Shown here piece after piece: positions 18,449 to 33,112 of a stretch of 64,000 nt of DNA. Position numbers and translations under genes: made by a program. The notes beneath the pieces are model-generated. The model was not told where the DNA came from, ran no database searches, and saw nothing but the letters and a program-made list of their open reading frames with translations. Source of the DNA: Verrucomicrobiaceae bacterium. Its GTDB lineage: Bacteria; Verrucomicrobiota; Verrucomicrobiia; Verrucomicrobiales; Verrucomicrobiaceae. Position 1 is the first letter of the stretch; each line of letters starts with the position of its first letter. Location: assembly GCA_027490195.1 (NCBI GenBank), contig JAIXYN010000028.1:1-64000 (forward strand). The letters are read 5' to 3'.

Positions 18449-20014
18449 TCATTTCGCCACACCCGCCACGGCGATGCCGAGTTCCACGGTCGGCTCAGCC
18501 GCATCATTCATCGGCGGCTCCGTGGCTGCGCCATTGGCGGATTTGAGGTCATTTCCCACGGACCAGATCAAACCGCGTGCCAGGCTGTATTGCAGCGGGG
18601 AACCGGTGTAGGGATCGACAGGCACATCGAGCAGGAAGTTGAAGGTACGCAGTTGTTCGAGGGTAGCAGGCACCATTTTTTTCTCGGCAATGCAGCGCCG
18701 CACCGCAAACAAGGTGACGATCAAATTCCCACGGGTGCGCGCAAGTCCAAGCGCAGCGGGCAGCGAAGTGTAGGTCTTCATGCGCTGATGGTAGTAGGCC
18801 AGCCCGGCGGAGTTCGGCTGGTAGGAAGCCTCGCCAGCAGCGTCGTGTTTCAGATGCACCTCGGCGGTGAGGACCAGCGGTGTCTCGGTTTCATTTTTGA
18901 TCTGCCGGAACGCCGTGGCGAAATGCTGCAGGGTTTCGTACGGTTTGAAAAACAACCGGCCCGGACGATGCAGCTGCACGCCACCGGGCATGGTGTCGAG
19001 ATTCTCGCCGCTCTTCGGGCCGAGAATGAGTTTTTTCTCATGTACGTAATAAGCATTCATTGCCCCCTCCAATACTTCCGTCATGGGCTGGCAGACACTG
19101 AACTGGCGCTGAAACTGCCGCAGCGTGGCTTCTGGCAGCTTGGTCTGCCGCAGCAGATCGGCCAGCGTTTGTGCGGCGAGTTTCTGTGCCTCCAGCGAGC
19201 GCTGGTAGCAGGAGGGCCAGGCCCAGATTTGCTCCAGCCGCCAGCCAAACTCCGCGAGATCGATCGCCGCAGTAAACGCCGCCTCCTCCTGCATGCGGCG
19301 TGAGAGGTAGGCGGCCTCCGCCTGCTTGAGCACCATCATCTGATGCAAGCGCGGGTCCATGCACAAATCTTCGGCGTGCCATGCTGCATGCGTGGGATGC
19401 CAGTCGGCGTCTTCCAGAAGATCACGCAGATTGTCGAGCGCGATGCCATTGGACTGGACGACGCGCGACAGCGTGGGTGTGTCCCACAGCCATGGCGGTT
19501 TGCCGTTCAATCGCGTTGAGTCGTAAGGCACCAGCGCATTCAAAAACTTGCGCAGCTTGCCAGGCGTCTGAATCGACACCGCCTGATCGACCGGCCGGTT
19601 TAAAAGCAGGTCTGTGTCCAGGCCCGGCGCTTGATCGTCCACATACAGCCAGGCGATGAAGACCAACGCCAGCATTCCCATGCTCAGAATCGCCAGCGTG
19701 GACCATGAAGCCTCGCGCTCCACGGCATGCTCAGGCCGCTTCTTGACCAGTCTGGAAGGCGGCGCCTGGCGTGGTACAGCGGGCACTTCTTCCACCACCG
19801 CTGGCGGTGGAGCTTCCACTGGTGGCCTGGGTACTGCTTGGCGCTCTTTGGGCGCGGATGTCCGTTTCTCCTCGATGTAGGGGCGCTTCTTTCCGGGCGG
19901 CGCATCCAGCCACTCCAGATCCAGCTCCCAAGGGGACGACCATGCACCACCCGCCTCTCCGCGGTGCGCGGGCTTGTCGGCGGGTGTTTCTGGCGGCGTA
20001 TGGGGCCGGATCAT
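18449..20014 (-). CDS. Single-pass membrane protein of unknown function
   Basis: A 521-residue protein starting at ATG 20014; a TTG at 20050 would add 12 residues. The first 100 residues are charged and proline-rich (RPPVEAPPPAVVEEVPAVPRQ) and predicted cytoplasmic. One transmembrane helix lies around residues 103-125 (LAILSMGMLALVFIAWLYV). The extracytoplasmic 395 residues are mostly helical, with Trp-rich segments and DPYTGSPLQYSLARGLIWSVG near the end. That ending resembles planctomycete/verrucomicrobial proteins with a DPFTGxPL-type tail. I do not recognise an enzymatic domain. Confidence 0.8.
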   Translation of the reverse strand: MIRPHTPPETPADKPAHRGEAGGAWSSPWELDLEWLDAPPGKKRPYIEEKRTSAPKERQAVPRPPVEAPPPAVVEEVPAVPRQAPPSRLVKKRPEHAVEREASWSTLAILSMGMLALVFIAWLYVDDQAPGLDTDLLLNRPVDQAVSIQTPGKLRKFLNALVPYDSTRLNGKPPWLWDTPTLSRVVQSNGIALDNLRDLLEDADWHPTHAAWHAEDLCMDPRLHQMMVLKQAEAAYLSRRMQEEAAFTAAIDLAEFGWRLEQIWAWPSCYQRSLEAQKLAAQTLADLLRQTKLPEATLRQFQRQFSVCQPMTEVLEGAMNAYYVHEKKLILGPKSGENLDTMPGGVQLHRPGRLFFKPYETLQHFATAFRQIKNETETPLVLTAEVHLKHDAAGEASYQPNSAGLAYYHQRMKTYTSLPAALGLARTRGNLIVTLFAVRRCIAEKKMVPATLEQLRTFNFLLDVPVDPYTGSPLQYSLARGLIWSVGNDLKSANGAATEPPMNDAAEPTVELGIAVAGVAK

Positions 20015-20056
20015 GCGCCGCAGTATGTACTCTCGAACGCGTGCGGGCAATACGCG

Positions 20057-21475
20057 TCATTGCTTCGTCTGGCGCAGTTCCTTCGCCTTACCGCCGAAAT
20101 AGGGGTAGCGGTCCCACACGTTCGTCGCTGGATCGACGCGCGGATCGTTCGTCTCACGCATCCAGGCATCGGTGCTGTCGCTGAGCCCGGCTTTGACCTT
20201 CGCAAACCGGGGATCGGCGGCGAGGTTGACCCCTTGATCGGGGTCGTTCTTCACATCGTAGAGTTCCTCGGCAGGCCGTTTGCCAAAGCTGATCTCAAAC
20301 AGCGGCTTCACCGCCGGATCATTCGCATGCGTCATCAGGTAAAGCTTCGTGCGCGAACCATCAATGTCACCGTAAGGCCCCACGGCATGATAGAGCTGTG
20401 GATCGCCCGCCGGCCAGCGGTCCGGCCGCAGATTGCGCAGATATAAAAACTCCGCCGTGCGCACGCCACGCACGGGATAGCTCAGATCGCCCCGCCGCAC
20501 GTTCGCGTGCCGCTCACGCTCGATGAACACGCGGTCGCGCTTCACCGCCGGAGGTTCTCCCGTCAGCACATCGACCAAACTGTGCGCCGTCATCTCCGGC
20601 CACGGCTGGAGCCCGGCGATCTCCAGAAACGTCGGCGCGAAGTCGGTGAGCGAGACGAACGCATCGCTCACGCTGCCCGCCTTCACCCTGCCGGGCCAGC
20701 GTACCGCCAGCGGCACGTGCGTGCCTTCGTCATAGCAATGTGCGAGTCCGTGCGGCATCTGCCAGCCGTTATCGCTGGTGTGAATCACCACCGTGTTGTC
20801 CAGCTCGCCGTTCTTTTCCAGCAGCGCGAGGGCCTCACCAAACGCCTCGTCCATCAGCTCCACCTGCGCGAGATAGTCCGTGATCTCCTCGCGCACTTCA
20901 GGCACATCTGGCAATGCCTTCGGCACACGCACCTGCGCCGGATCAATGCCACGCGCCCTGCCAGTGCCGGCGCGCCAGCGGTTCAGTGAGGTGTGAGTCG
21001 ATCCGAACCAAAAGAAAAAGGGCTGCTTCTCCTTTCGCCCGGCCATGAAGGCGGAAAAGTCTTTGAACTCGGTGCCGGCTGGATTCAGGTCGCGGCCGAA
21101 ATCTTTGAAATTCCCCGGGGACCAGCCCTTGCCAGAGAATCCCACATGCCAGCCCGCCTGGCTCAGTGCATCGCCGAACACGCGAAATTTCCCCGGGAAC
21201 TTGCTCCACAAGCTCGCCGCATCCTCAAGCTGATGCGCCGCACGCCCGGTGACGATGCATGAGCGAGTGGGCGAGCACGACGGCACCGGGCAGAAGGCGT
21301 TCGTGAAACGCATGCCCTCGCGTGCCATGCGATCAAAGACGGGTGTGCGCACCGCCTTGTCACCATTCGCCGCAGCGTGCTCATAGGACCAGTTGTCGCC
21401 GATCAGCAGCAAAATGTTTGGCGCGGCATTCACCGCAGAACCTAGGATCAGCAGAGAGAGCAGCAGACGAATCAT
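20057..21475 (-). CDS. Secreted sulfatase (formylglycine type)
   Basis: A 472-residue sulfatase with a signal peptide (to about Ala18). The active-site motif is CSPTR with Cys67 converted to formylglycine by a separate maturase. The metal-binding start NILLLIGDNWS has Asp27, and HTSDNGWQMPHGLAH carries the second metal-ligand region. The C-terminus has the typical ELYDVKNDPDQGVNLA strand. It would hydrolyse sulfate esters of polysaccharides in the periplasm or outside. No formylglycine-generating enzyme is in the window. The substrate cannot be told from sequence. Confidence 0.93.
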   Translation of the reverse strand: MIRLLLSLLILGSAVNAAPNILLLIGDNWSYEHAAANGDKAVRTPVFDRMAREGMRFTNAFCPVPSCSPTRSCIVTGRAAHQLEDAASLWSKFPGKFRVFGDALSQAGWHVGFSGKGWSPGNFKDFGRDLNPAGTEFKDFSAFMAGRKEKQPFFFWFGSTHTSLNRWRAGTGRARGIDPAQVRVPKALPDVPEVREEITDYLAQVELMDEAFGEALALLEKNGELDNTVVIHTSDNGWQMPHGLAHCYDEGTHVPLAVRWPGRVKAGSVSDAFVSLTDFAPTFLEIAGLQPWPEMTAHSLVDVLTGEPPAVKRDRVFIERERHANVRRGDLSYPVRGVRTAEFLYLRNLRPDRWPAGDPQLYHAVGPYGDIDGSRTKLYLMTHANDPAVKPLFEISFGKRPAEELYDVKNDPDQGVNLAADPRFAKVKAGLSDSTDAWMRETNDPRVDPATNVWDRYPYFGGKAKELRQTKQ

Positions 21476-21574: not shown

Positions 21575-22222
21575 TCAGCGCCAGGCCATGAATCGATAGG
21601 CCCCAAACGGATGACTGCTCACCCGTATCTGCCAAGGGGCATCCAGTGCGAGGGCTTCACGCAGCTCGTCGCCCTGAAATCCCGCACGAATGCTCGCCTG
21701 CATGTCATGGCGTTGCACATGATTGAGCTCCGCCAGCTCACAAAACAACCTGCCGGAGAGGCTGTGAATCCAGTGACGAGCAGGTTCGGCAGCAATGATC
21801 AACCGTGTCACAGGAGACAGGCGCGAACCCAGCAGACGGAGTTGTTCCGTGGTGAAATGATGCAGAAACAAATTCGCGATCACGATTTCTGTGTCTGGCA
21901 GCGCCTGTGCCAGTACATCACCGCGCGTCCATTGCGCCTCCACAGGCCAGAGCTGCGGCCTGGGTGCCAAATCAAAAGCATGCAGCGCCGCCTCAGAGCA
22001 ACAGCCTGCTTCCAAGAGCCGCAATGAAAGAGCTCCATCCCCCGCACCCAGCTCCGTGATGCGCCAACCGACTTCGCGATGACGGCGAACCATGCGCTCA
22101 ATCCAGCGATGATTGCCCATGATGCCGTTGACCTGCAGCATTTCCTCACGCGCGCGGATGGCGTCGGGGTCATCTGGCGGCAGCGTATCGAGAAGTTCAG
22201 GCTGGAAGGCACGCTCTTTCAT
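21575..22222 (-). CDS. Class I SAM-dependent methyltransferase of the polyketide operon
   Basis: A 215-residue protein with the SAM-binding motif I ITELGAGDGALSLRLLEAG (about residues 55-72), motif II HAFDLAP and motif IV-like DTEIVIANLFLHHF. The upstream ketosynthase ends only 9 bases before this start, so it is the last gene of the type III polyketide operon. An O- or C-methylation of the aromatic product is the simplest reading, by analogy with SrsB in the Streptomyces griseus phenolic-lipid cluster. The exact target is inferred from context. Confidence 0.82.
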   Translation of the reverse strand: MKERAFQPELLDTLPPDDPDAIRAREEMLQVNGIMGNHRWIERMVRRHREVGWRITELGAGDGALSLRLLEAGCCSEAALHAFDLAPRPQLWPVEAQWTRGDVLAQALPDTEIVIANLFLHHFTTEQLRLLGSRLSPVTRLIIAAEPARHWIHSLSGRLFCELAELNHVQRHDMQASIRAGFQGDELREALALDAPWQIRVSSHPFGAYRFMAWR

Positions 22223-22231
22223 GGCTTCAGA

Positions 22232-23500
22232 CTACCGGGGGCAAGGCTGCGAAAAAATCAGCGTCACATTCGAACCGCCGAAGCCACTGGAGTTGCTCAT
22301 CGCGACACGTGGGGCCTGATCGTTCGGACTGGTGAGGATGTCCACGCCTTCGCAGGCGGGATCTAGCTGCTGAATCTTCGCCGAAATCGGCATGAAGCCC
22401 TCCTTCAAGGCCAGGCAGCAGATGCCAGCCTCCAGAGCTCCCGCGAGACTAAGCCCGTGACCGGTCAGTGCCTTGGTGCTGCTGACCTTCGGTCTGACAT
22501 CACCGGTGAAGAGAGTTTTGAGCGCGCTCAGCTCGGCAATGTCGCCTGCGCTGGTCGCGGTGGCATGAGCATTGATGTAGTCGATCTCGGCGGCTTTCAG
22601 ATCAGCATCCTGCAGCGCTTGGGTCATGGCGCGTGCCAGTCCGCTGCCGCTGGGATCTGGTGCGACCACATCGTAGCCATCGGAGCCCTGGCCCCAGCCT
22701 GTGACCTCCGCGTAAACGGTGGCACCGCGTGCGGCGGCGTGTTCCGCATCTTCAAGCACGAGCGCCACACCGCCACCGGTGGTGATGAAGCCATCGCGGC
22801 CTGCATCAAACGGACGCGGTGCTAGGGCAGGGTCACTGTGCGAACTCAAGGCCCTCAGCGAAGCAAATGGCAAAACGGTGTGCAGCAGCTGGGCGTCTTC
22901 CGCACCGACCACGAACATGGTTTTCTGCCGCCCCATCCGGATCATGTCGCAGGCGTGCCCGAGGGCGTGTGAGGAAGAAGCGCAGGCGCTGTTGAACGCC
23001 AACGCGGCACCTTTGATTCCAAACAGGGCCGTGAGATTGAGGTGCAACGAATTCGGCATGCCGGAGATGACCACAGGCGCTGAAGTGCGGGCCGGCCCGC
23101 GTTTGATCACCGAATCCATCGCCAAATAGGTCATCCAAGGCGATCCTGCCGAGGCACAGTACAAGCCGGTCTGCGGATCCGAAACCTGCGTGGGTTCCAG
23201 TTTGGCATCAGCAATGGCCTCCTTCATGGCGGCGTAGGCAAACACGGCATTGGGAACCATCGTACGCAGTTGCGCACGGCTCAGCTTCACATGCTCGGGG
23301 AAGGTCCAGTCGAGCGGATCAGAGGTGGGGAATTCGAAGCCCTTCACCGTTCCTGCCAGCTTCACGCGGTCATTGGCAGCGGCCAGTTCTGGAACAAATT
23401 CAATGCCAGACCTGGCTTCGCGCAGGCTTTCCGTCACCGCAGCACGGTTGTTGCCGATGCTGGAGATGAATCCCAGCCCGGTGACGACCACGCGGTTCAT
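22232..23500 (-). CDS. Beta-ketoacyl-ACP synthase (FabF-like ketosynthase)
   Basis: A 422-residue condensing enzyme with the Cys-His-His triad: Cys173 in SACASSSHA, His312 in INAHATAT and His348 in TGHGLSLAG. The C-terminus SNSSGFGGSNVTLIF is typical of KAS II. The start overlaps the acyl carrier protein stop by 4 bases (23497-23500), giving translational coupling. With its own ACP it is likely to make or extend an acyl chain dedicated to this pathway, for example a starter for the type III synthase, rather than serve housekeeping fatty acid synthesis. That role is inference. Confidence 0.92.
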   Translation of the reverse strand: MNRVVVTGLGFISSIGNNRAAVTESLREARSGIEFVPELAAANDRVKLAGTVKGFEFPTSDPLDWTFPEHVKLSRAQLRTMVPNAVFAYAAMKEAIADAKLEPTQVSDPQTGLYCASAGSPWMTYLAMDSVIKRGPARTSAPVVISGMPNSLHLNLTALFGIKGAALAFNSACASSSHALGHACDMIRMGRQKTMFVVGAEDAQLLHTVLPFASLRALSSHSDPALAPRPFDAGRDGFITTGGGVALVLEDAEHAAARGATVYAEVTGWGQGSDGYDVVAPDPSGSGLARAMTQALQDADLKAAEIDYINAHATATSAGDIAELSALKTLFTGDVRPKVSSTKALTGHGLSLAGALEAGICCLALKEGFMPISAKIQQLDPACEGVDILTSPNDQAPRVAMSNSSGFGGSNVTLIFSQPCPR

Positions 23501-23892
23501 GAGTCGCTCGCGCCAAATTTGGAGCGGAGGAATGTCTTCAGATCTCCCAGAGTGGCGATGCCGCCCATCTCTTGCGTGGCGATGGTGAGGCCGAGGACTT
23601 CTTCCGCCGTCATCATGACTTCGATCATACCAAAGGAATCCATGCCAATGTCACCCATCAGCTTCATGTCATCGGTGACTGTGGCCATGCCATCAGGTCG
23701 TGGGTTGGCGGCATCACGTGCCAGCACACCGAGAATGATGGTCGGCAGCTCGTCGAGGTTCTTGGTTTCTTCAAAGCGTAAAGCGGCGGCGACCGTCTCC
23801 TCACTGCAACGTTTCAGGGATTTGGCTATTTCCTGTTTTCGGTCTTCGCTCACGGGCATGGCGGTGTTTAGTCCGTTATGTTGATGGTTCAA
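23497..23892 (-). CDS. Acyl carrier protein with N-terminal extension
   Basis: A 131-residue ACP-like protein. The phosphopantetheine site is Ser86 in GDIGMDSFGMIEVMMTAEE, with Phe replacing the usual Leu after DS. The first 45-50 residues are a charged helical extension absent from ordinary 75-85 residue ACPs. A downstream ATG at 23859 (MPVSEDRK) is an equally good start and gives 120 residues. It overlaps the ketosynthase gene by 4 bases, so the two proteins are probably made in balanced amounts and act as a pair. It carries acyl intermediates as thioesters after activation by a phosphopantetheinyl transferase encoded elsewhere. Confidence 0.85.
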   Translation of the reverse strand: MNHQHNGLNTAMPVSEDRKQEIAKSLKRCSEETVAAALRFEETKNLDELPTIILGVLARDAANPRPDGMATVTDDMKLMGDIGMDSFGMIEVMMTAEEVLGLTIATQEMGGIATLGDLKTFLRSKFGASDS

Positions 23893-24052
23893 TGCTTTTC
23901 AGTGCGGAAGGCACCTAGGGAGCCGTGGCAGCCATGGCTATTCACTCGATCGTGGAGTTAATCTAGGGTCTGCAGGCGATGAATGGCACGCTCTTTCGCT
24001 TTTCGTTCCGCCAAACTCCAGCCACCACGGGCTGCGCCTAGAGGACCTGAGT

Positions 24053-25249
24053 TCAGATCCGTTGCGGCGGCTGACTGGTCAAAGGAACCTGTTTGAGGGT
24101 GTTGAACGGGATCGTGAGCATCGCATAAAAAGAACCCATGTGTCTGGCGACGGGTTTCTGGCGGAGCAGGAACTTCAAGAGGACATCACGCAGCATCGAG
24201 AGCGCTTTGCCGCGCCAGGTGCCCAGCCACATGCCCCACTCGGCGCGAAAGATGGCTGCCTTAGCCGCCTTGCGCCGGAAACGGTTGTAGGCTGGCAGCA
24301 GTTGCAGCGGATCGGCCTGGCAAAGAATAGCCGCGAGGAACTCTGCGTCGGCAAAACCGGTGTTCATGCCCTGGCCGCCGATGGGGCTCATGCCGTGCGC
24401 GGCGTCACCACAGAGGATGATGCGCCCCTCGTAGTAGCGGTCACAGTTGAATTTACGCGGCGTGAAGGCGCTCTCACTGAGTTGATCGGCGGCGGGTACG
24501 TCCATGCCGGTGCGCCTTTTGATCAGTTCACTGACAAACCCCAGTGGCGGATGATCCAGATGCGTTTCAGTCTGCACAATCCAGCGCCGCTGGCCACCGG
24601 GCAGCGGAAAAGACTCCACCGCACCCGTCTCGGTGAAAAACAGGTGCGCCTCATCACCCAAACCGCTGCGGTCGATGAAATCGCCCATGGCAAAGTGGCA
24701 GTCATAGACATGACCCGGTGCCCGCATGCCGATGAACTCGCGCAGGCGACTGCGGCTGCCATCACAGGCGATCACGAAGCGTGCCGTGAGCGTACGTTCA
24801 CCAGTTTGCACACAGCAGTGATCCTCCAACTGCCTCACATCGCTGACTTCACATCCAGGCTCGAAGTGCTCCTGCCCCAGATGCTTCAGCAGCATCGCAA
24901 TGGTGGTGGCCTGCGGAAGTGAAAGAATGAAGCGGTGCGCGTCCGGAATCTCCCGAAACGAAACACAACCTAGCCGGCCACGCTGGCCATGGACTAGGCA
25001 GTCGCGCACCTGCACACCCCTGGCGACGAACTCGGCTGCGAGACCCAGCTTGTCCAGAATCTGCAATGAGGGTGGCGTGATGCCGATGGCCGCCGAGTAC
25101 GCCATGGGCTCTGTACGCCGCTCCAACACGCGGAGACGCAGTCCCTGCTGCTTCAGCAGACAGCCCAGCAACAATCCCACAGGCCCGCCACCCACGATGA
25201 TCACATCGTAGTCGGTCGCTCCTGCTGTACTATCAGTGACCGGTTTCAC
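24053..25249 (-). CDS. FAD-dependent aromatic hydroxylase/monooxygenase
   Basis: A 398-residue flavoprotein hydroxylase of the PHBH/UbiH fold. The dinucleotide motif is VIIVGGGPVGLLLG near the N-terminus, with RVLERR at the end of strand 2. The second FAD motif is ILCGDAAHGMSPIGGQGMN, and CDGSRSRLREF matches the DG motif. The start is taken as GTG at 25249 because it overlaps the type III PKS stop (25246-25248) in a GTGA arrangement and gives a normal N-terminus; longer frames upstream merely shadow the PKS gene. It probably hydroxylates the polyketide aromatic ring with NAD(P)H and O2, analogous to SrsC. A 160-base gap follows before the ACP gene. Confidence 0.88.
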   Translation of the reverse strand: MKPVTDSTAGATDYDVIIVGGGPVGLLLGCLLKQQGLRLRVLERRTEPMAYSAAIGITPPSLQILDKLGLAAEFVARGVQVRDCLVHGQRGRLGCVSFREIPDAHRFILSLPQATTIAMLLKHLGQEHFEPGCEVSDVRQLEDHCCVQTGERTLTARFVIACDGSRSRLREFIGMRAPGHVYDCHFAMGDFIDRSGLGDEAHLFFTETGAVESFPLPGGQRRWIVQTETHLDHPPLGFVSELIKRRTGMDVPAADQLSESAFTPRKFNCDRYYEGRIILCGDAAHGMSPIGGQGMNTGFADAEFLAAILCQADPLQLLPAYNRFRRKAAKAAIFRAEWGMWLGTWRGKALSMLRDVLLKFLLRQKPVARHMGSFYAMLTIPFNTLKQVPLTSQPPQRI

Positions 25250-26403
25250 GCCTCGACTTGTACCAGCACGGCAGGTTGAGCTTTCTGCGTCGTCGGTATC
25301 GCCGCGCCGCAGCGCTCCAGCACCGCCGTTTCCACCGTCAGCCCCGGGCCAAAGGCAATGGCACAGGTCGTGGCACGCTCCGTTTCCGCTTCTTCGAGGA
25401 AACCCTTGAGCACAAACATCACCGTCGGGCTGCTCATGTTGCCATAGTCGCGCAACACGCTCCGGGCCATGTCCAGCGCAGCCGCAGGCAGCGCTAGCTG
25501 CTCCTCGATCTGCTCTAAAATCGCCCGCCCTCCCGGATGCACCGCCCACTCGTCGATGTCCCCCAGCGCCAGCCCGCATTTGTCCAGGATCCCCCCGAGC
25601 ATCTCGCGGATGTTGCTACCGATCAGCTCCGGCACATAAGCCGAAAGCACCATGTTGAATCCGTGGTCGCCAATATCCCACGCCATGTGCGCCTCGCTGG
25701 AAGGCACCAGCGCCGACTGAAAGCCCTGGACCCGGTAATACGGCCGGTCATGCGCCGGCTCGCGGGCGCTGACGATGGCCGCCGCCGCGCCGTCCGCAAA
25801 AAGCGAATTGGCCACAATGCTCTCCGGTTTGCCGCTGACTTGCAGATGCAGCGAGCACAGCTCCAGACACATTACCAACACCACGGCCTGTGGATTCGCC
25901 TCACAAAACTGCGCCGCCATGCGCAGCGCCGGAAAGGCCGCATAGCAGCCCATGAACCCCACCGTGTACCGCTCCACGTTCTCATTCAGCCCCACCTCAC
26001 GGATGATGTGGTAGTCCGGCCCCGGATTCGCAAACCCCGTGCACGAAGCAAACACCACATGCGTGATGTCACTCTTCGCAAACTGCGGACACTCAGCCAG
26101 CGTCTTCTGCGCCAGCTTCACCGCCAGCTCGCGGGCGGCTTTGGCATACAGCGTATTGCGCTGCCCGGTGCTCGGCGAGTTCATCGTACCATCCGGCAGC
26201 GTGTGAAACAATTCGCCGTCGTCCTTCATGAAGTCGCCGCACGCGCTGTACCGCGTCTCGATCCCCGTGCGCTCGTAGATCATTTCGATCATGCGTTTGG
26301 CCCGCGGCTCGGACACCCAGTTCTTCATGCGCTCACGCGAGAACTCATTGGTGTAAATGAACTCCGGCGTCTCCGTGGAGATGTGATGAATGTAAGCGGG
26401 CAT
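25246..26403 (-). CDS. Type III polyketide synthase (chalcone synthase-like)
   Basis: A 385-residue homodimeric ketosynthase of the chalcone/stilbene synthase superfamily. The triad is Cys153 in GFMGCYAAFPALR, His289 in WAVHPGGRAIL and Asn322 in DYGNMSSPTVMF. Such enzymes extend an acyl starter with malonyl-CoA and cyclise it to resorcinols, pyrones or related rings. The neighbouring hydroxylase and methyltransferase match the SrsA-B-C logic for alkylresorcinol and alkylquinone lipids. It lies 2 bases after the YceI gene and overlaps the hydroxylase start, so the cluster is one tight transcript. The starter could be acyl-CoA or an acyl chain from the local ketosynthase and ACP. Confidence 0.95.
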   Translation of the reverse strand: MPAYIHHISTETPEFIYTNEFSRERMKNWVSEPRAKRMIEMIYERTGIETRYSACGDFMKDDGELFHTLPDGTMNSPSTGQRNTLYAKAARELAVKLAQKTLAECPQFAKSDITHVVFASCTGFANPGPDYHIIREVGLNENVERYTVGFMGCYAAFPALRMAAQFCEANPQAVVLVMCLELCSLHLQVSGKPESIVANSLFADGAAAAIVSAREPAHDRPYYRVQGFQSALVPSSEAHMAWDIGDHGFNMVLSAYVPELIGSNIREMLGGILDKCGLALGDIDEWAVHPGGRAILEQIEEQLALPAAALDMARSVLRDYGNMSSPTVMFVLKGFLEEAETERATTCAIAFGPGLTVETAVLERCGAAIPTTQKAQPAVLVQVEA

Positions 26404-26405
26404 GA

Positions 26406-26993
26406 TCAGGAAGGATTGCGTTTCAGGGAGACGGCAGCATGCACCTTGATCGTATCACCCACACGGAGGAACAACAGCACAGAGGGGACCTTGATGTCGC
26501 TCTTTTTGAGTGAGAGATCGAAGTCGAGTTCGAAGGTAGCCTTGTCGCCCTGCTGTTTCCAGTGGCTGATCCGGCCCGTGATCGTCTGCGTTTTACCCAG
26601 CATCGTGAGTTTCAAGGGCAGCGTGGCAGGCTTCGAATCTCCCTGCCGGATGGCAGAGAAGGGCGCGTCGATGACGCCGGTGATGAGCGGATGGGCCGTG
26701 GCCTGCATGGCCTTGAGCATGTTTTCATCACGCTTCGCCTCGGCGGTGTCCATTTTCGCCACTTCGACGGTCACGGCCGCCACCACCCGTGTGGGATTTC
26801 CGGCGGCATCGGTGGTAACCTTGGTGACAAAAGGTTTCGTGGCCACCTTGCCACCCCAATCATGCAGGGTGGAGGTGCCGTCGAAGGAGATCTGGCTGGT
26901 GCCAGACCAATGAGTGGTGTCAGCCAGGGCATTGCCAAGCAGCGCCATGCAGACGAACGATGAAAGCCGGAAGATCATGGCGGTTCGCATCAT
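26406..26993 (-). CDS. YceI-family periplasmic lipid-binding protein
   Basis: A YceI-like lipocalin-fold protein of about 195 residues with a signal peptide ending near ALA. Family features are WSGTSQISFDGTSTLHDWGG, an AKRDENMLKAM segment and LTMLGKTQTITGR. ATG 26993 or 26990 is likely; a GTG at 27005 is less so. A characterised YceI homologue binds polyisoprenoid, and the fold encloses a hydrophobic tunnel. As first gene of the polyketide operon, only 2 bases from the PKS gene, it may carry the phenolic lipid or quinone product across the periplasm. That link is inference from linkage. Confidence 0.88.
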   Translation of the reverse strand: MMRTAMIFRLSSFVCMALLGNALADTTHWSGTSQISFDGTSTLHDWGGKVATKPFVTKVTTDAAGNPTRVVAAVTVEVAKMDTAEAKRDENMLKAMQATAHPLITGVIDAPFSAIRQGDSKPATLPLKLTMLGKTQTITGRISHWKQQGDKATFELDFDLSLKKSDIKVPSVLLFLRVGDTIKVHAAVSLKRNPS

Positions 26994-27065: not shown

Positions 27066-27290
27066 TCATTCCTTCGTGAATGACATTCCAAAGCATGCTG
27101 CTAACGATTTGCCATGCCCTCCCCCTGCCGCTGGAAATCCCTCGCCTTGCGCCTTTGGCGCATCGCGCTGCTGGCGCTGGCGGTCCTTGCCATTCGGCGC
27201 CTCAAACACCGCAGGCATGATCGAAGTCGCGGTGCCCGCGTAGGCCAGCAGCAGCAGCAGAACGACCATCAGGCTGCGGAAACGTTTCAT
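27066..27290 (-). CDS. Possible small secreted protein, antisense to the duplicated gene start
   Basis: A 74-residue frame starting at ATG 27290 with a good signal-peptide look (MKRFRSLMVVLLLLLAYAGT). The downstream 40 residues (PNGKDRQRQQRDAPKAQGEG) are the antisense of the duplicated fragment at 27114-27203 and have no protein character. Possibly a real short gene whose 3' part was replaced when the island boundary formed. No homologue recognised. Confidence 0.3.
   Translation of the reverse strand: MKRFRSLMVVLLLLLAYAGTATSIMPAVFEAPNGKDRQRQQRDAPKAQGEGFPAAGGGHGKSLAACFGMSFTKE
27114..27203 (+). pseudogene. Displaced 5' end of the NosR-like gene (left boundary of island)
   Basis: From ATG 27114 the frame reads MP....W.SLALRLWRIALL and on to LAVLAIRR. 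This matches the start of the NosR-like gene at 31448, with the initiator Met, W and SLALRLWRI at identical spacing and strong nucleotide identity over about 65 bases. The similarity ends after the RR codons (about 27203 against 31537), and the frame then runs into unrelated sequence. It is best read as one of two direct copies of a gene start, here without its body. Confidence 0.7.
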
Positions 27291-31447: not shown

Positions 31448-33112
31448 ATGCCCAAGAACCGCCCCTGGCCCTCCCTCGCTCTGCGCCTTTGGCGCATCGC
31501 GTTGCTGGCCCTAGCGGTTCTTGCCATTCGGCGCTCGCACTCGCCTGCGGCGGTGGCTTTGACGGTGGACCGCATCCACGACTTCTTCCCCACCGCAGCC
31601 TCTCTCTCCCCACAAAACGGCATGCAGGCGGTGAAGGACGCCTCGGGTATCACGCTGGGCCACGTCATGCAGACCTCCCCAGAGGCAGATGACATCATCG
31701 GCTACTCCGGGCCCACGAACACGCTTATCGCGCTCGACTCACGCGGCAAAGTCCTGGGCCTGCGCATCCTGAGCAGCGGCGACACGACGGATCATCTGGC
31801 TGAGGTGGTGCGCGAACGTGCGTTCTTCAAGCAGTTCACGGACAAGAAAGCCGCCGAGCTCGCGAACCTGCAACCGCAGGCCGTTTCCGGCGCGACGCTG
31901 ACCAGCAGCGCGATCGCCGAAGGGGTCCTGCGCCGCCTGGGCAAAAGCGCCACCACCTCGCTGCGGTTTCCTGACGCGATCACGCTGGAGGAAGTCAAAA
32001 AGCTCGAACCCCGCGCGGCGACACTTCGCGAATCCCAAGCGCATCCCGGTTCACACGAAGTGCTGGATGAGAAAGGTGCGGTGATAGCGCTGGCCGTGCG
32101 CACCGCGCCAGCCTCCGATGGCACGGTCGGCTACAAAGGACCGAGCGACACCTTCATGCTGATGGATGCTGGCGGCACGACGCTGCGCGGCATTGCACTG
32201 CGGCGCAGTTACGACACCGAGCAGTATGTGGGCTATGTCACCGGCGATCCGGTGTTTTTGAAAACGTTCGATGGCATGACGACGGATAAGATCGCGCACA
32301 TCGACTTCAATGCCGCCGGCGTGGAAGGCGTTTCCGGGGCCACGCAGACGAGCTACGGCATCGCCGAAGGCATTCGCGTGCGAGCGGAGTCCTGGCTCAA
32401 AGAAAACGAAGCCCGCCGCTCTTGGTGGCAGCAGATTCGCTGGCGCTGGCAGGACAGCGGGCATGTGGCGATCCTGCTGGCGGCTTTGGCGATGGCCTTC
32501 ACGCCGCTGCGGGGCCGGGCATGGTGCCGCCACCTGCACCATGCGCTGCTGGTTATTTATGGCGGTTTCATCGCCGGGGAAATGCTGTCTCAAGGTCTCC
32601 TCGCAGGCTGGGCCACCCATGGCACCCCCTGGCGCAATGCGCACGGGCTGGTGCTGCTGGCTGCCGTGGCGCTGCTGGGGCCGGTGTTCACCAGCAAGCA
32701 GCTCTACTGCCACCACATCTGCCCGCACGGTGCGCTGCAGCAGCTTCTGGCGCGGCGCTTGCCGTGGCAGTGGTCGCCCTCGAAAGCGGTCGACAAGCTG
32801 CTGTCCAAACTGCCCTTCGTGCTCCTCGCGCTGGTTCTTTTCAGCGTGACCTTTGCACTGCCGGTCAATCTGAACGCGCTGGAGCCCTTTGATGCCTACC
32901 TGTTTCGCGTGGCTGGCTGGGCGAGCATCACCATCGCCATCGTCGGCCTGCTGTGGTCCCTCTTCACCCCGCTGGCCTACTGCCGCTATGGCTGCCCGAC
33001 GGGGGCCTTGTTCAAACTGCTGCGCTTCACCGGAGATGGAGATCGCTTCGGCGCGCGCGATTGGCTCGCCGCGCTGTGTGTGGCGTTCGTTCTTCTCTTG
33101 GCTCCCGGCTGA
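31448..33112 (+). CDS. NosR-like membrane protein: two FMN-binding domains plus Fer4_5 iron-sulfur motifs
   Basis: A 554-residue protein. An N-terminal transmembrane segment (about 9-28) precedes two extracytoplasmic FMN-binding domains with flavinylation motifs VSGATLTS (Thr150) and VSGATQTS (Thr299), the type of threonine modified by ApbE. About five transmembrane helices follow, with cytoplasmic cysteine clusters CHHICPHGALQ and CRYGCPTGALFK typical of NosR/NapH-type membranes. It should move electrons between membrane carriers and extracytoplasmic acceptors. No soluble 2x[4Fe-4S] tail is present; the frame ends soon after the second cluster inside a REP-like palindrome. ATG 31448 is supported by the duplicate gene start at 27114. 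No apbE or reductase gene is adjacent. Confidence 0.88.
   Translation: MPKNRPWPSLALRLWRIALLALAVLAIRRSHSPAAVALTVDRIHDFFPTAASLSPQNGMQAVKDASGITLGHVMQTSPEADDIIGYSGPTNTLIALDSRGKVLGLRILSSGDTTDHLAEVVRERAFFKQFTDKKAAELANLQPQAVSGATLTSSAIAEGVLRRLGKSATTSLRFPDAITLEEVKKLEPRAATLRESQAHPGSHEVLDEKGAVIALAVRTAPASDGTVGYKGPSDTFMLMDAGGTTLRGIALRRSYDTEQYVGYVTGDPVFLKTFDGMTTDKIAHIDFNAAGVEGVSGATQTSYGIAEGIRVRAESWLKENEARRSWWQQIRWRWQDSGHVAILLAALAMAFTPLRGRAWCRHLHHALLVIYGGFIAGEMLSQGLLAGWATHGTPWRNAHGLVLLAAVALLGPVFTSKQLYCHHICPHGALQQLLARRLPWQWSPSKAVDKLLSKLPFVLLALVLFSVTFALPVNLNALEPFDAYLFRVAGWASITIAIVGLLWSLFTPLAYCRYGCPTGALFKLLRFTGDGDRFGARDWLAALCVAFVLLLAPG

Follow-up and report, generated by a model that had tools for sequence, protein, structure and literature searches.

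Type III polyketide synthases (PKSs) are usually described as enzymes that work without an acyl carrier protein (ACP) and are fed by CoA thioesters. Type III PKSs that can accept an acyl-ACP starter include germicidin synthase Gcs and the Ars system of Azotobacter, which has a fatty acid synthase (FAS) of its own, ArsA, whose ACP domain it employs (PMC6274091). In the cylindrocyclophane system (Cyl), a free-standing ACP-bound starter is upstream of the type III PKS (PMC8086630), and a fatty acyl-AMP ligase is involved with Myxococcus FtpA according to a title cited in PMC10896814. With Ars, Gcs, and Cyl as precedents, the idea of a dedicated ACP or of a type III PKS loaded from acyl-ACP is thus not itself new.

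In the srsABC system of Streptomyces griseus and relatives, an alkylresorcinol is methylated and hydroxylated, with srsB-type genes said to encode isoprenylcysteine carboxyl methyltransferases (ICMTs) (PMC6669644). The hidABC genes of cyanobacteria (hierridin) are arranged in the order of methyltransferase (MT), FAD-dependent monooxygenase (FDO), and PKS (PMC10896814, PMC8086630), while the acyl-ACP starter of HidC is itself only proposed (PMC8086630). The five-gene operon of 'S. ferox' combines a type III PKS with an oxidoreductase and a methyltransferase, plus a lipid/isoprenoid-binding protein (PMC10896814). Within the terms and collection used for our literature search, no paper joining YceI with a type III polyketide was found, and no title among the matches listed concerned alkylresorcinol synthesis in Verrucomicrobiota.

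Organization of the operon

The window, i.e., the whole stretch of 64,000 nucleotides analyzed here, carries six intact and conserved genes in the order of yceI, PKS, FDO, ACP, β-ketoacyl-ACP synthase (KAS), and MT, all on the (-) strand (21575-26993). The preliminary description had given the same six genes on one strand in this order, which is borne out by the positions of the open reading frames and the Pfam matches in the window (YceI, chalcone/stilbene synthase N and C, FAD_binding_3, PP-binding, and ketoacyl-synt N and C). The 2-base gaps and 4-base overlaps reported there were recovered at the yceI-PKS junction (2-base gap), the PKS-FDO junction (4-base overlap, GTGA), and the ACP-KAS junction (4-base overlap, ATGA), but the KAS-MT gap is 9 bases long. 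The ACP-KAS overlap is kept in 24/24 relatives, which is beyond chance. A promoter/terminator scan yielded no promoter-like and four terminator-like sites, not above the level in shuffled sequences, and is silent on transcript ends.

Distribution of the ACP-KAS pair

The ACP-KAS pair was found near the PKS at 25/25 loci of one PKS clade (the window and 24 relatives, hereafter clade 1), all of which are coded as the genus of the window, probably Prosthecobacter. The pair was found at none of the 34 next-tier and none of the 22 outer loci, which together make up the remaining 56 PKS loci retrieved from this phylum, tiered by PKS identity, not by the tree; the absence is weak at eight of them because less than 4 kb of sequence is available beyond the start of the PKS (L054, L062, L247, L249, L252, L264, and L267 of the 34; L067 of the 22). 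In the PKS tree, which stems from a quick search, contains long branches, and has no bootstrap, the gain of the pair maps to a single branch as one change, leading to one clade with an SH-aLRT of 97. The KAS matches at E 1e-80 did not include G432 (with L267), the genome adjoining clade 1 in this tree.

A survey of 56 genomes found that the same 21 genomes hold a close KAS and a close PKS, and that no genome holds the former without the latter. The whole-genome KAS search covered 14 pair-less genomes of the same genus (G004-G006, G008, G013, G015, G017-G019, G024-G026, G033, and G034), with genomes G435 to G462 outside its scope. At two loci of clade 1 (L046 and L047), a more distant FDO match (51 and 53%) follows KAS, and PKS, ACP, and KAS still adjoin. 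Altogether, the ACP-KAS pair accompanies this PKS, in support of the preliminary description, which had called the ketosynthase and ACP dedicated. The PKS and KAS distances correlate (r 0.81, with 0/2000 permutations as high), which is also expected from plain shared descent; in this analysis, L223 was placed with the ACP-DH module described below although no DH match was found there.

The median dN/dS was 0.09 for PKS, 0.088 for KAS, and 0.118 for ACP, as estimated by the Nei-Gojobori method with dS above 1 in many pairs and pairs lacking a finite dS dropped (PKS 1/24, KAS 3/24, ACP 5/24, FDO 3/24, and MT 3/17). By these estimates, purifying selection acts on KAS and ACP as it does on the PKS.

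YceI and the type III PKS

The yceI gene (26406..26993, (-) strand) encodes a signal peptide, recognized by eye, and a YceI lipocalin-like domain (Pfam YceI, 39.7 bits against a cutoff of 23.7). The fold comparison of the model (mean pLDDT 88) also placed the protein in the YceI fold, with a VIA-align Z of 18.1 to the polyisoprenoid-binding protein 1wub, whereas phmmer against PDB sequences returned nothing at E 0.01. YceI was not found at 3/24 clade-1 loci (L037, L046, and L047) and matched at the C-terminus only at two further loci (L032 and L034), implying that it is not essential. Members of the YceI family bind polyprenyl-like ligands in crystals. We propose that the YceI of this operon may be a periplasmic carrier of a phenolic lipid, and the operon would tie the YceI family to phenolic-lipid synthesis.

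The type III PKS (25246..26403, (-) strand; 385 aa) has the chalcone/stilbene synthase N and C domains of Pfam (98 and 100 bits against a cutoff of 27) and the catalytic triad C153, H289, and N322, which is present in 81/81 aligned rows. We take W242 and M251 of this PKS to be the positions of G256 and F265 of CHS (CHS numbering). The former is Trp in 79/81 aligned rows and, by the alignment to stilbene synthase 1z1e and a 9-residue spacing, appears to match the position of ArsB W281, the equivalence being indirect as ArsB and ArsC are outside the alignment. Mutants of ArsB/ArsC tie Trp at this position to resorcinol rather than pyrone cyclization (PMC6274091), and the PKS of the window appears to keep this residue. 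At the gate position (CHS F265), Met occurs in 25/25 rows of clade 1, Ile in 31/34 next-tier rows, and Met also in 2/34 next-tier and 7/22 outer rows without ACP-KAS. Met is likewise found here in the HidC group, for which the use of acyl-ACP is predicted (PMC8086630).

FDO, the spacer, and methyltransferases

The FDO gene (24053..25249, (-) strand; 398 aa; FAD_binding_3, 158 bits) starts with a GTG that overlaps the PKS stop, and an FDO match was found at 24/24 clade-1 relatives. Between FDO and ACP lies a spacer of 193 bases (23860..24052, (-) strand), where 15/24 clade-1 relatives have a second methyltransferase (MT2, ~282 aa). MT2 was searched for and not found in the window, and its best match in the same genome is 30%. 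The spacer is similar to that of L241, which likewise lacks MT2 (79% over 70 bases), and shares only short matches with MT2-bearing relatives (41 bases in L039 and 17 in L038 and L033), mostly at the ACP-side end. A decayed MT2 as the origin of the spacer is not supported, given the match to L241 and no clear MT2 remnant.

The last gene (21575..22222, (-) strand) encodes a small methyltransferase-like protein of 215 aa with a sub-cutoff match to NCBIfam PRK06202 (36.1 bits against 243), no Pfam match at E 0.01, and no family match above cutoff. A match to this MT lies within 9 kb of 16/24 clade-1, 8/34 next-tier, and 5/22 outer loci. In relatives, a membrane methyltransferase domain forms one ORF with FDO in 25/28 cases; with the domain of these relatives, not SrsB, as the query, it was found at 0/24 clade-1 loci and not in the window. 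Three such proteins gave PEMT matches of 23.2 and 17.2 bits (cutoff 25) and none, respectively, and one of them an ICMT match of 13 bits; with matches weak or absent, we did not equate this domain with SrsB and left it as 'SrsB-like.' Judged from its sequence, the MT of the window is soluble-looking and differs in kind from SrsB. Thus, of the SrsA-C logic invoked in the preliminary description, the set of PKS, FAD hydroxylase, and methyltransferase holds and follows srs/hid, but an ICMT-type methyltransferase like SrsB is not supported.

The ACP and KAS

The long ACP (23497..23859, (-) strand) has Ser75 in a DSF motif (PP-binding, 23.6 bits against a cutoff of 20.8), and MDSFG, with the attachment Ser, is found in 24/24 relatives. 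An N-terminal extension of ~35 residues is suggested by a low-confidence model (mean pLDDT 62, pTM 0.51). Because the ATG at 23859 is common to the relatives, several of which have an in-frame stop just upstream, the ACP most likely starts there and is 120 aa long; in the relatives, the starts of some ORFs were chosen by script. The long gap before ACP, noted earlier as the only one of its kind and 160 bases in length, does exist, but the latter figure presumes a TTG start and the length is most likely 193 bases.

The KAS (22232..23500, (-) strand) matches ketoacyl-synt N and C of Pfam and has C173, H312, K343, and H348, kept in 25/25 sequences. It had been labeled 'KAS II-like,' which does not agree with the solved structures: the top 17 rows are mostly named KAS I/FabB (280 to 266 bits) and the first row named KAS II scores only 227 bits. 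The KAS in the operon shares only 37% identity with the presumed housekeeping KAS. No ketoreductase, dehydratase, enoyl reductase, or acyl-AMP ligase was recognized by Pfam and NCBIfam among the operon genes and, without such reducing and dehydrating enzymes, the ACP-KAS pair alone cannot finish an elongation cycle.

Elsewhere in Verrucomicrobiia, the KAS subfamily also occurs without an adjoining type III PKS, and a dehydratase domain was found at 11/20 loci examined and the tested SDR at 7/20. The ACP-DH/KAS(/SDR) modules (L218, L219, L226, and others) have, like the window, a long ACP with an LKRCS-type motif, and their KAS is 48 to 58% identical; the long ACP and KAS of the window belong with this module subfamily. 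In contrast to these modules, neither the dehydratase domain nor the tested SDR had a match at the 24 clade-1 loci or in the window, while ACP was found at all 24.

Discussion

A lipid with a phenolic head is the likely product of the operon. As the likeliest reading, we see about an even chance that the locus is, taken jointly, a phenolic-lipid operon with an added ACP-KAS pair that supplies the acyl starter to the PKS. The dedicated ACP and FabB-like KAS would have been added once in the Prosthecobacter clade. The pair would build or select an acyl chain on this ACP, relying on the housekeeping enzymes of fatty-acid synthesis for the steps that it lacks, and pass the chain on to the PKS as acyl-ACP. 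The type III PKS would take this long acyl starter, add malonyl units, and close a resorcinol ring, which FDO would hydroxylate and the methyltransferase methylate, yielding an alkylhydroquinone or alkylquinone that YceI would bind in the periplasm. On the sequence evidence, the custom acyl starter put forward in the preliminary description is plausible.

The missing partners of KAS allow another reading, in which a first, single condensation by KAS on the dedicated ACP is left unreduced and the resulting β-ketoacyl-ACP is accepted by the type III PKS, which adds only the remaining malonyl units and finishes the aromatic ring. Both the lack of matches to dehydratase and SDR at loci that have the ACP and the shift of the gate residue in the PKS favor this division of labor. 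However, this ACP could be served by housekeeping reductases, and no sequence mark showing the acceptance of β-ketoacyl starters was found; we regard this reading as rather unlikely. If true, the locus would represent a type II/type III hybrid line, and the relay would have arisen once, in a Prosthecobacter ancestor recruiting a trimmed fatty-acid module.

The occurrence of the KAS subfamily elsewhere with no adjoining type III PKS might instead indicate that the operon is of the ordinary srs/hid type and that ACP-KAS hitchhikes in it, acting in general fatty-acid synthesis. This is improbable in the light of the 56-genome survey, in which close KAS never occurred apart from close PKS, and of the adjacency kept in the rearranged L046 and L047. 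We give the lowest credence to ACP-KAS working after or beside the PKS, e.g., making a second acyl group attached to the phenol: the order in which the enzymes act does not follow from gene linkage alone, but no acyltransferase-family gene was recognized in the operon by Pfam and NCBIfam, and the pair directly follows the PKS in L046 and L047.

Whichever applies, this lineage fixed an ACP and a ketosynthase beside a type III PKS in one step of the tree, both under selection. Clade 1 and the sister Prosthecobacter without the pair offer a natural comparison for the gain of ACP-fed starters.

Compared with known systems, the same kinds of PKS, oxidoreductase, and methyltransferase are found in the 'S. 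ferox' operon, of which the lipid/isoprenoid-binding protein is comparable to YceI; its gene order differs from that of the window, and the available text of PMC10896814 mentions no ACP or KAS ('ketoacyl' does not appear there). Likewise, hidABC has the same three enzyme kinds, and Met at the CHS F265 position in the HidC group, but its order is not yceI-PKS-FDO-ACP-KAS-MT and no KAS is mentioned for it in the available text. With srsABC, the PKS and monooxygenase are shared, whereas SrsB is of the ICMT type and no membrane methyltransferase was found in the window or clade 1. Cyl elongates with type I PKSs, with no FabB-like KAS mentioned in the available text, and the ACP of Ars is a domain within ArsA, whereas the window has a discrete ACP and a discrete, FabB-like KAS. 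Altogether, the core of YceI, type III PKS, FAD monooxygenase, and methyltransferase is a Verrucomicrobiota version of the alkylresorcinol/alkylquinone operons (srs, hid, and planctomycete), in which the unusual part, the pair of ACP and KAS, may alter the supply of the lipid tail.

Organization of the operon

The six genes, on the same strand as the preliminary description had claimed, are located on the minus strand from 26993 to 21575 in the order yceI, type III polyketide synthase (PKS), FAD monooxygenase (FDO), ACP, beta-ketoacyl-ACP synthase (KAS), and a small methyltransferase-like gene (MT). Pfam families back the first five, and MT was matched by NCBIfam alone, below the cutoff. The genes had been described as separated by 2-base gaps or 4-base overlaps apart from one 160-base gap; a 2-base gap (yceI-PKS) and two 4-base overlaps (PKS-FDO and ACP-KAS) were indeed found, but KAS and MT are 9 bases apart. 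Furthermore, the ATG at 23859 is most likely the start of ACP, because it is common to the relatives, several of which bear an in-frame stop just 5' of it, and the FDO-ACP spacer would then be 193 bases. At two related loci (L033 and L040), an RND-type exporter-like gene was noted by eye on the opposite strand between KAS and MT, in the place of the 9 bases of the window.

The Pfam chalcone/stilbene synthase N family was matched once in the genome (6.98 Mb, the window being its contig C84). At a threshold of 1e-3, no match in the window was found to the queries for membrane methyltransferase, MT2 (a second methyltransferase in the FDO-ACP spacer of many relatives), UbiE-like, MMPL-like, dehydratase, or SDR proteins. 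A sulfatase (20057-21475) and then an uncharacterised protein (18449-20050) follow the operon on the same strand, and their matches were found within 9 kb downstream at 4 and 10, respectively, of the 24 loci termed clade 1 below. On the other side, two diverged copies of a short stretch (27127-27200 and 31461-31534; 86% over 74 bases) enclose approximately 4.2 kb with DUF433 and HTH genes; GC dips in part of this segment (0.51 at 28-30 kb). Matches to both flanks sit close together in L032, suggesting an old insertion or deletion.

Distribution of the operon core and the ACP-KAS pair

The PKS survey covered 34 further genomes of the same group as the window. Within the family, a PKS match at 1e-40 was obtained in 56 of 68 genomes; in 25 of these (the window counted), the match is at least 81% identical to the window PKS. 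An even draw of the phylum gave matches at 1e-50 in 32 of 387 genomes. We mapped window- and neighbour-derived genes on 80 loci taken from these three sets of matches. The 24 loci with a PKS identity of at least 78% (clade 1; 25 with the window) all possess FDO, ACP, and KAS, together with yceI (21), MT (16), and MT2 (15); a membrane methyltransferase was detected at none of them. Neither ACP nor KAS was found among the 34 loci of 52-78% identity (FDO 30, yceI 28, membrane methyltransferase 21, MT 8, MT2 3) or the 22 below 52% (FDO 11, yceI 9, membrane methyltransferase 7, UbiE-like 7, MT 5, MMPL-like 4). In a separate set of 80 PKS loci from named organisms, ACP and KAS occurred at nine (L072-L079 and L087), which apparently coincide with nine loci of the first set; neither was found at the remaining 71. 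Thus, yceI-PKS-FDO is a widespread backbone, to which ACP-KAS is an addition of restricted occurrence. The membrane methyltransferase-like domain shares one ORF with FDO in 25 of 28 cases (L052, L060, L262, L272, and L275 among them), perhaps an SrsB-SrsC-like fusion with a weak family assignment.

Of the 56 genomes surveyed, 21 contain a close PKS (at least 81%), and exactly these 21 also contain a close KAS (at least 77%); the remaining KAS matches listed were at most 48% identical. The ACP-KAS loci formed one clade of 25 with an SH-aLRT of 97, corresponding to one change, in the PKS tree of 81 rows, which came from a quick search with SH-aLRT support only and no bootstrap. PKS and KAS distances inside the clade were correlated (r 0.81; reached by 0 of 2000 permutations), as expected from shared descent. 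L046 and L047 have the order PKS-ACP-KAS-FDO-MT, with yceI absent in the mapping of window-derived genes and a more distant FDO (51 and 53% identical) that may be a replacement; ACP-KAS still adjoins PKS there. The catalytic Cys, His, Lys, and His of KAS are kept in 25/25, and the ACP motif MDSFG and the 4-base ACP-KAS overlap in 24/24 relatives. The median dN/dS against the window was 0.09 for PKS, 0.088 for KAS, 0.118 for ACP, 0.165 for FDO, and 0.162 for MT. Altogether, we regard the ACP-KAS variant of the operon as real and clade-specific, with its key reaction being a proposal from the sequences.

Origin of the ACP-KAS pair

Elsewhere in the same genome, the next KAS matches share 37% (full length) and 40% (partial) identity, and the next ACP match 29%. 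KAS relatives at 1e-80 were found in 61 of 387 genomes of the phylum draw, and 20 KAS loci were read (16 from this draw and four from the 56-genome survey). The same long-type ACP lies 5' of KAS in 16 of these; 11 of the 20 have a dehydratase domain and 7 have an SDR. ACP and dehydratase form a single protein in L226. At the clade-1 loci, ACP was found in 24/24, a dehydratase domain in 0/24, and an SDR in 0/24. In the KAS tree, clade 1 was united with a support of 100, and its sister (support 92) was L218, which carries ACP, dehydratase, and SDR. The simplest reading is that ACP-KAS was recruited as a trimmed module, in which the direction of loss is inferred.

The long ACP/dehydratase/KAS/SDR module recurs in the class (L218, L219, L222, L224, L226, L227, and L228). 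In L231 and L232, a long ACP-KAS of the same subfamily is followed, by eye, by a radical-SAM-like gene, and in L231 an MMPL-like gene also lies 3'; these sets possibly belong to another lipid pathway.

YceI

The predicted YceI structure resembles YceI and polyisoprenoid-binding structures in VIA-align, with the best match to 1wub (Z 18.1, rmsd 2.5 over 161 residues) and a Z of 17.2 to E. coli YceI (rmsd 2.7 over 156). PMC5350466 reports octaprenyl-like molecules, which it warns may be artefacts, in most bacterial lipocalin structures, and among its references is one to a Neisseria protein described as ubiquinone-8-binding. From these fold matches and ligands, a role of YceI as a carrier of the phenolic lipid is a reasonable inference. 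yceI was undetected at L037 as at L046 and L047 (3 of 24 clade-1 loci), and the match is confined to the C-terminus at L032 and L034, so YceI appears dispensable in some clade members. Related PKS genes are directly preceded by yceI in Desulfuromusa, Pelovirga, and Desulfuromonas (L091, L140, and L141) and in MAGs titled Deltaproteobacteria (L093-L095); several of these six loci also have MMPL-like and/or UbiE-like genes.

PKS residues and predicted product

The catalytic C153, H289, and N322 are present in 81/81 PKS rows. Aligned to stilbene synthase 1z1e, W242 and M251 fall at what we take to be G256 and F265 in CHS numbering. W242 occurs in 79/81 rows, and M251 in 25/25 clade-1 rows, with Ile at the latter position in 31 of the 34 rows of 52-78% identity. 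In the Ars system, Trp281 of ArsB versus Gly284 of ArsC sets resorcinol versus pyrone, and Met293 of ArsC lies nine residues further (PMC6274091). W242, placed via stilbene synthase and not Ars sequences, is likely the counterpart of Trp281, since W242 and M251 are also nine residues apart; with Trp in place of Gly, resorcinol-type cyclisation is the better guess. The HidC group, a predicted acyl-ACP user, has Met at the F265 position (PMC8086630), but this residue is also seen in 9 of the 56 rows lacking ACP-KAS, and is therefore only suggestive of acyl-ACP use. At L038, a 56-residue match to the PKS N-terminus lies approximately 1.5 kb 5' of the intact PKS, on the far side of yceI, and is a possible relic of duplication.

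Comparison with known systems

In kind, the operon core corresponds to the planctomycete operons, hid, and srs. The SrsA-C logic proposed in the preliminary description holds for the core, but not as strict srs membership, as no membrane methyltransferase was found in the window; the operon also lies outside strict hid membership, its gene order being different. In the literature searched, one open-access collection to which the claim of novelty is limited, we found no description of a type III PKS operon that has a FabB-like KAS and an ACP as discrete proteins. When expressed in C. glutamicum, the PKSs of these planctomycete operons gave pentadecyl- and heptadecylresorcinols (PMC10896814). 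Acyl-ACP feeding of a type III PKS is described for Ars and Gcs in PMC6274091, and a free-standing ACP for Cyl in PMC8086630.
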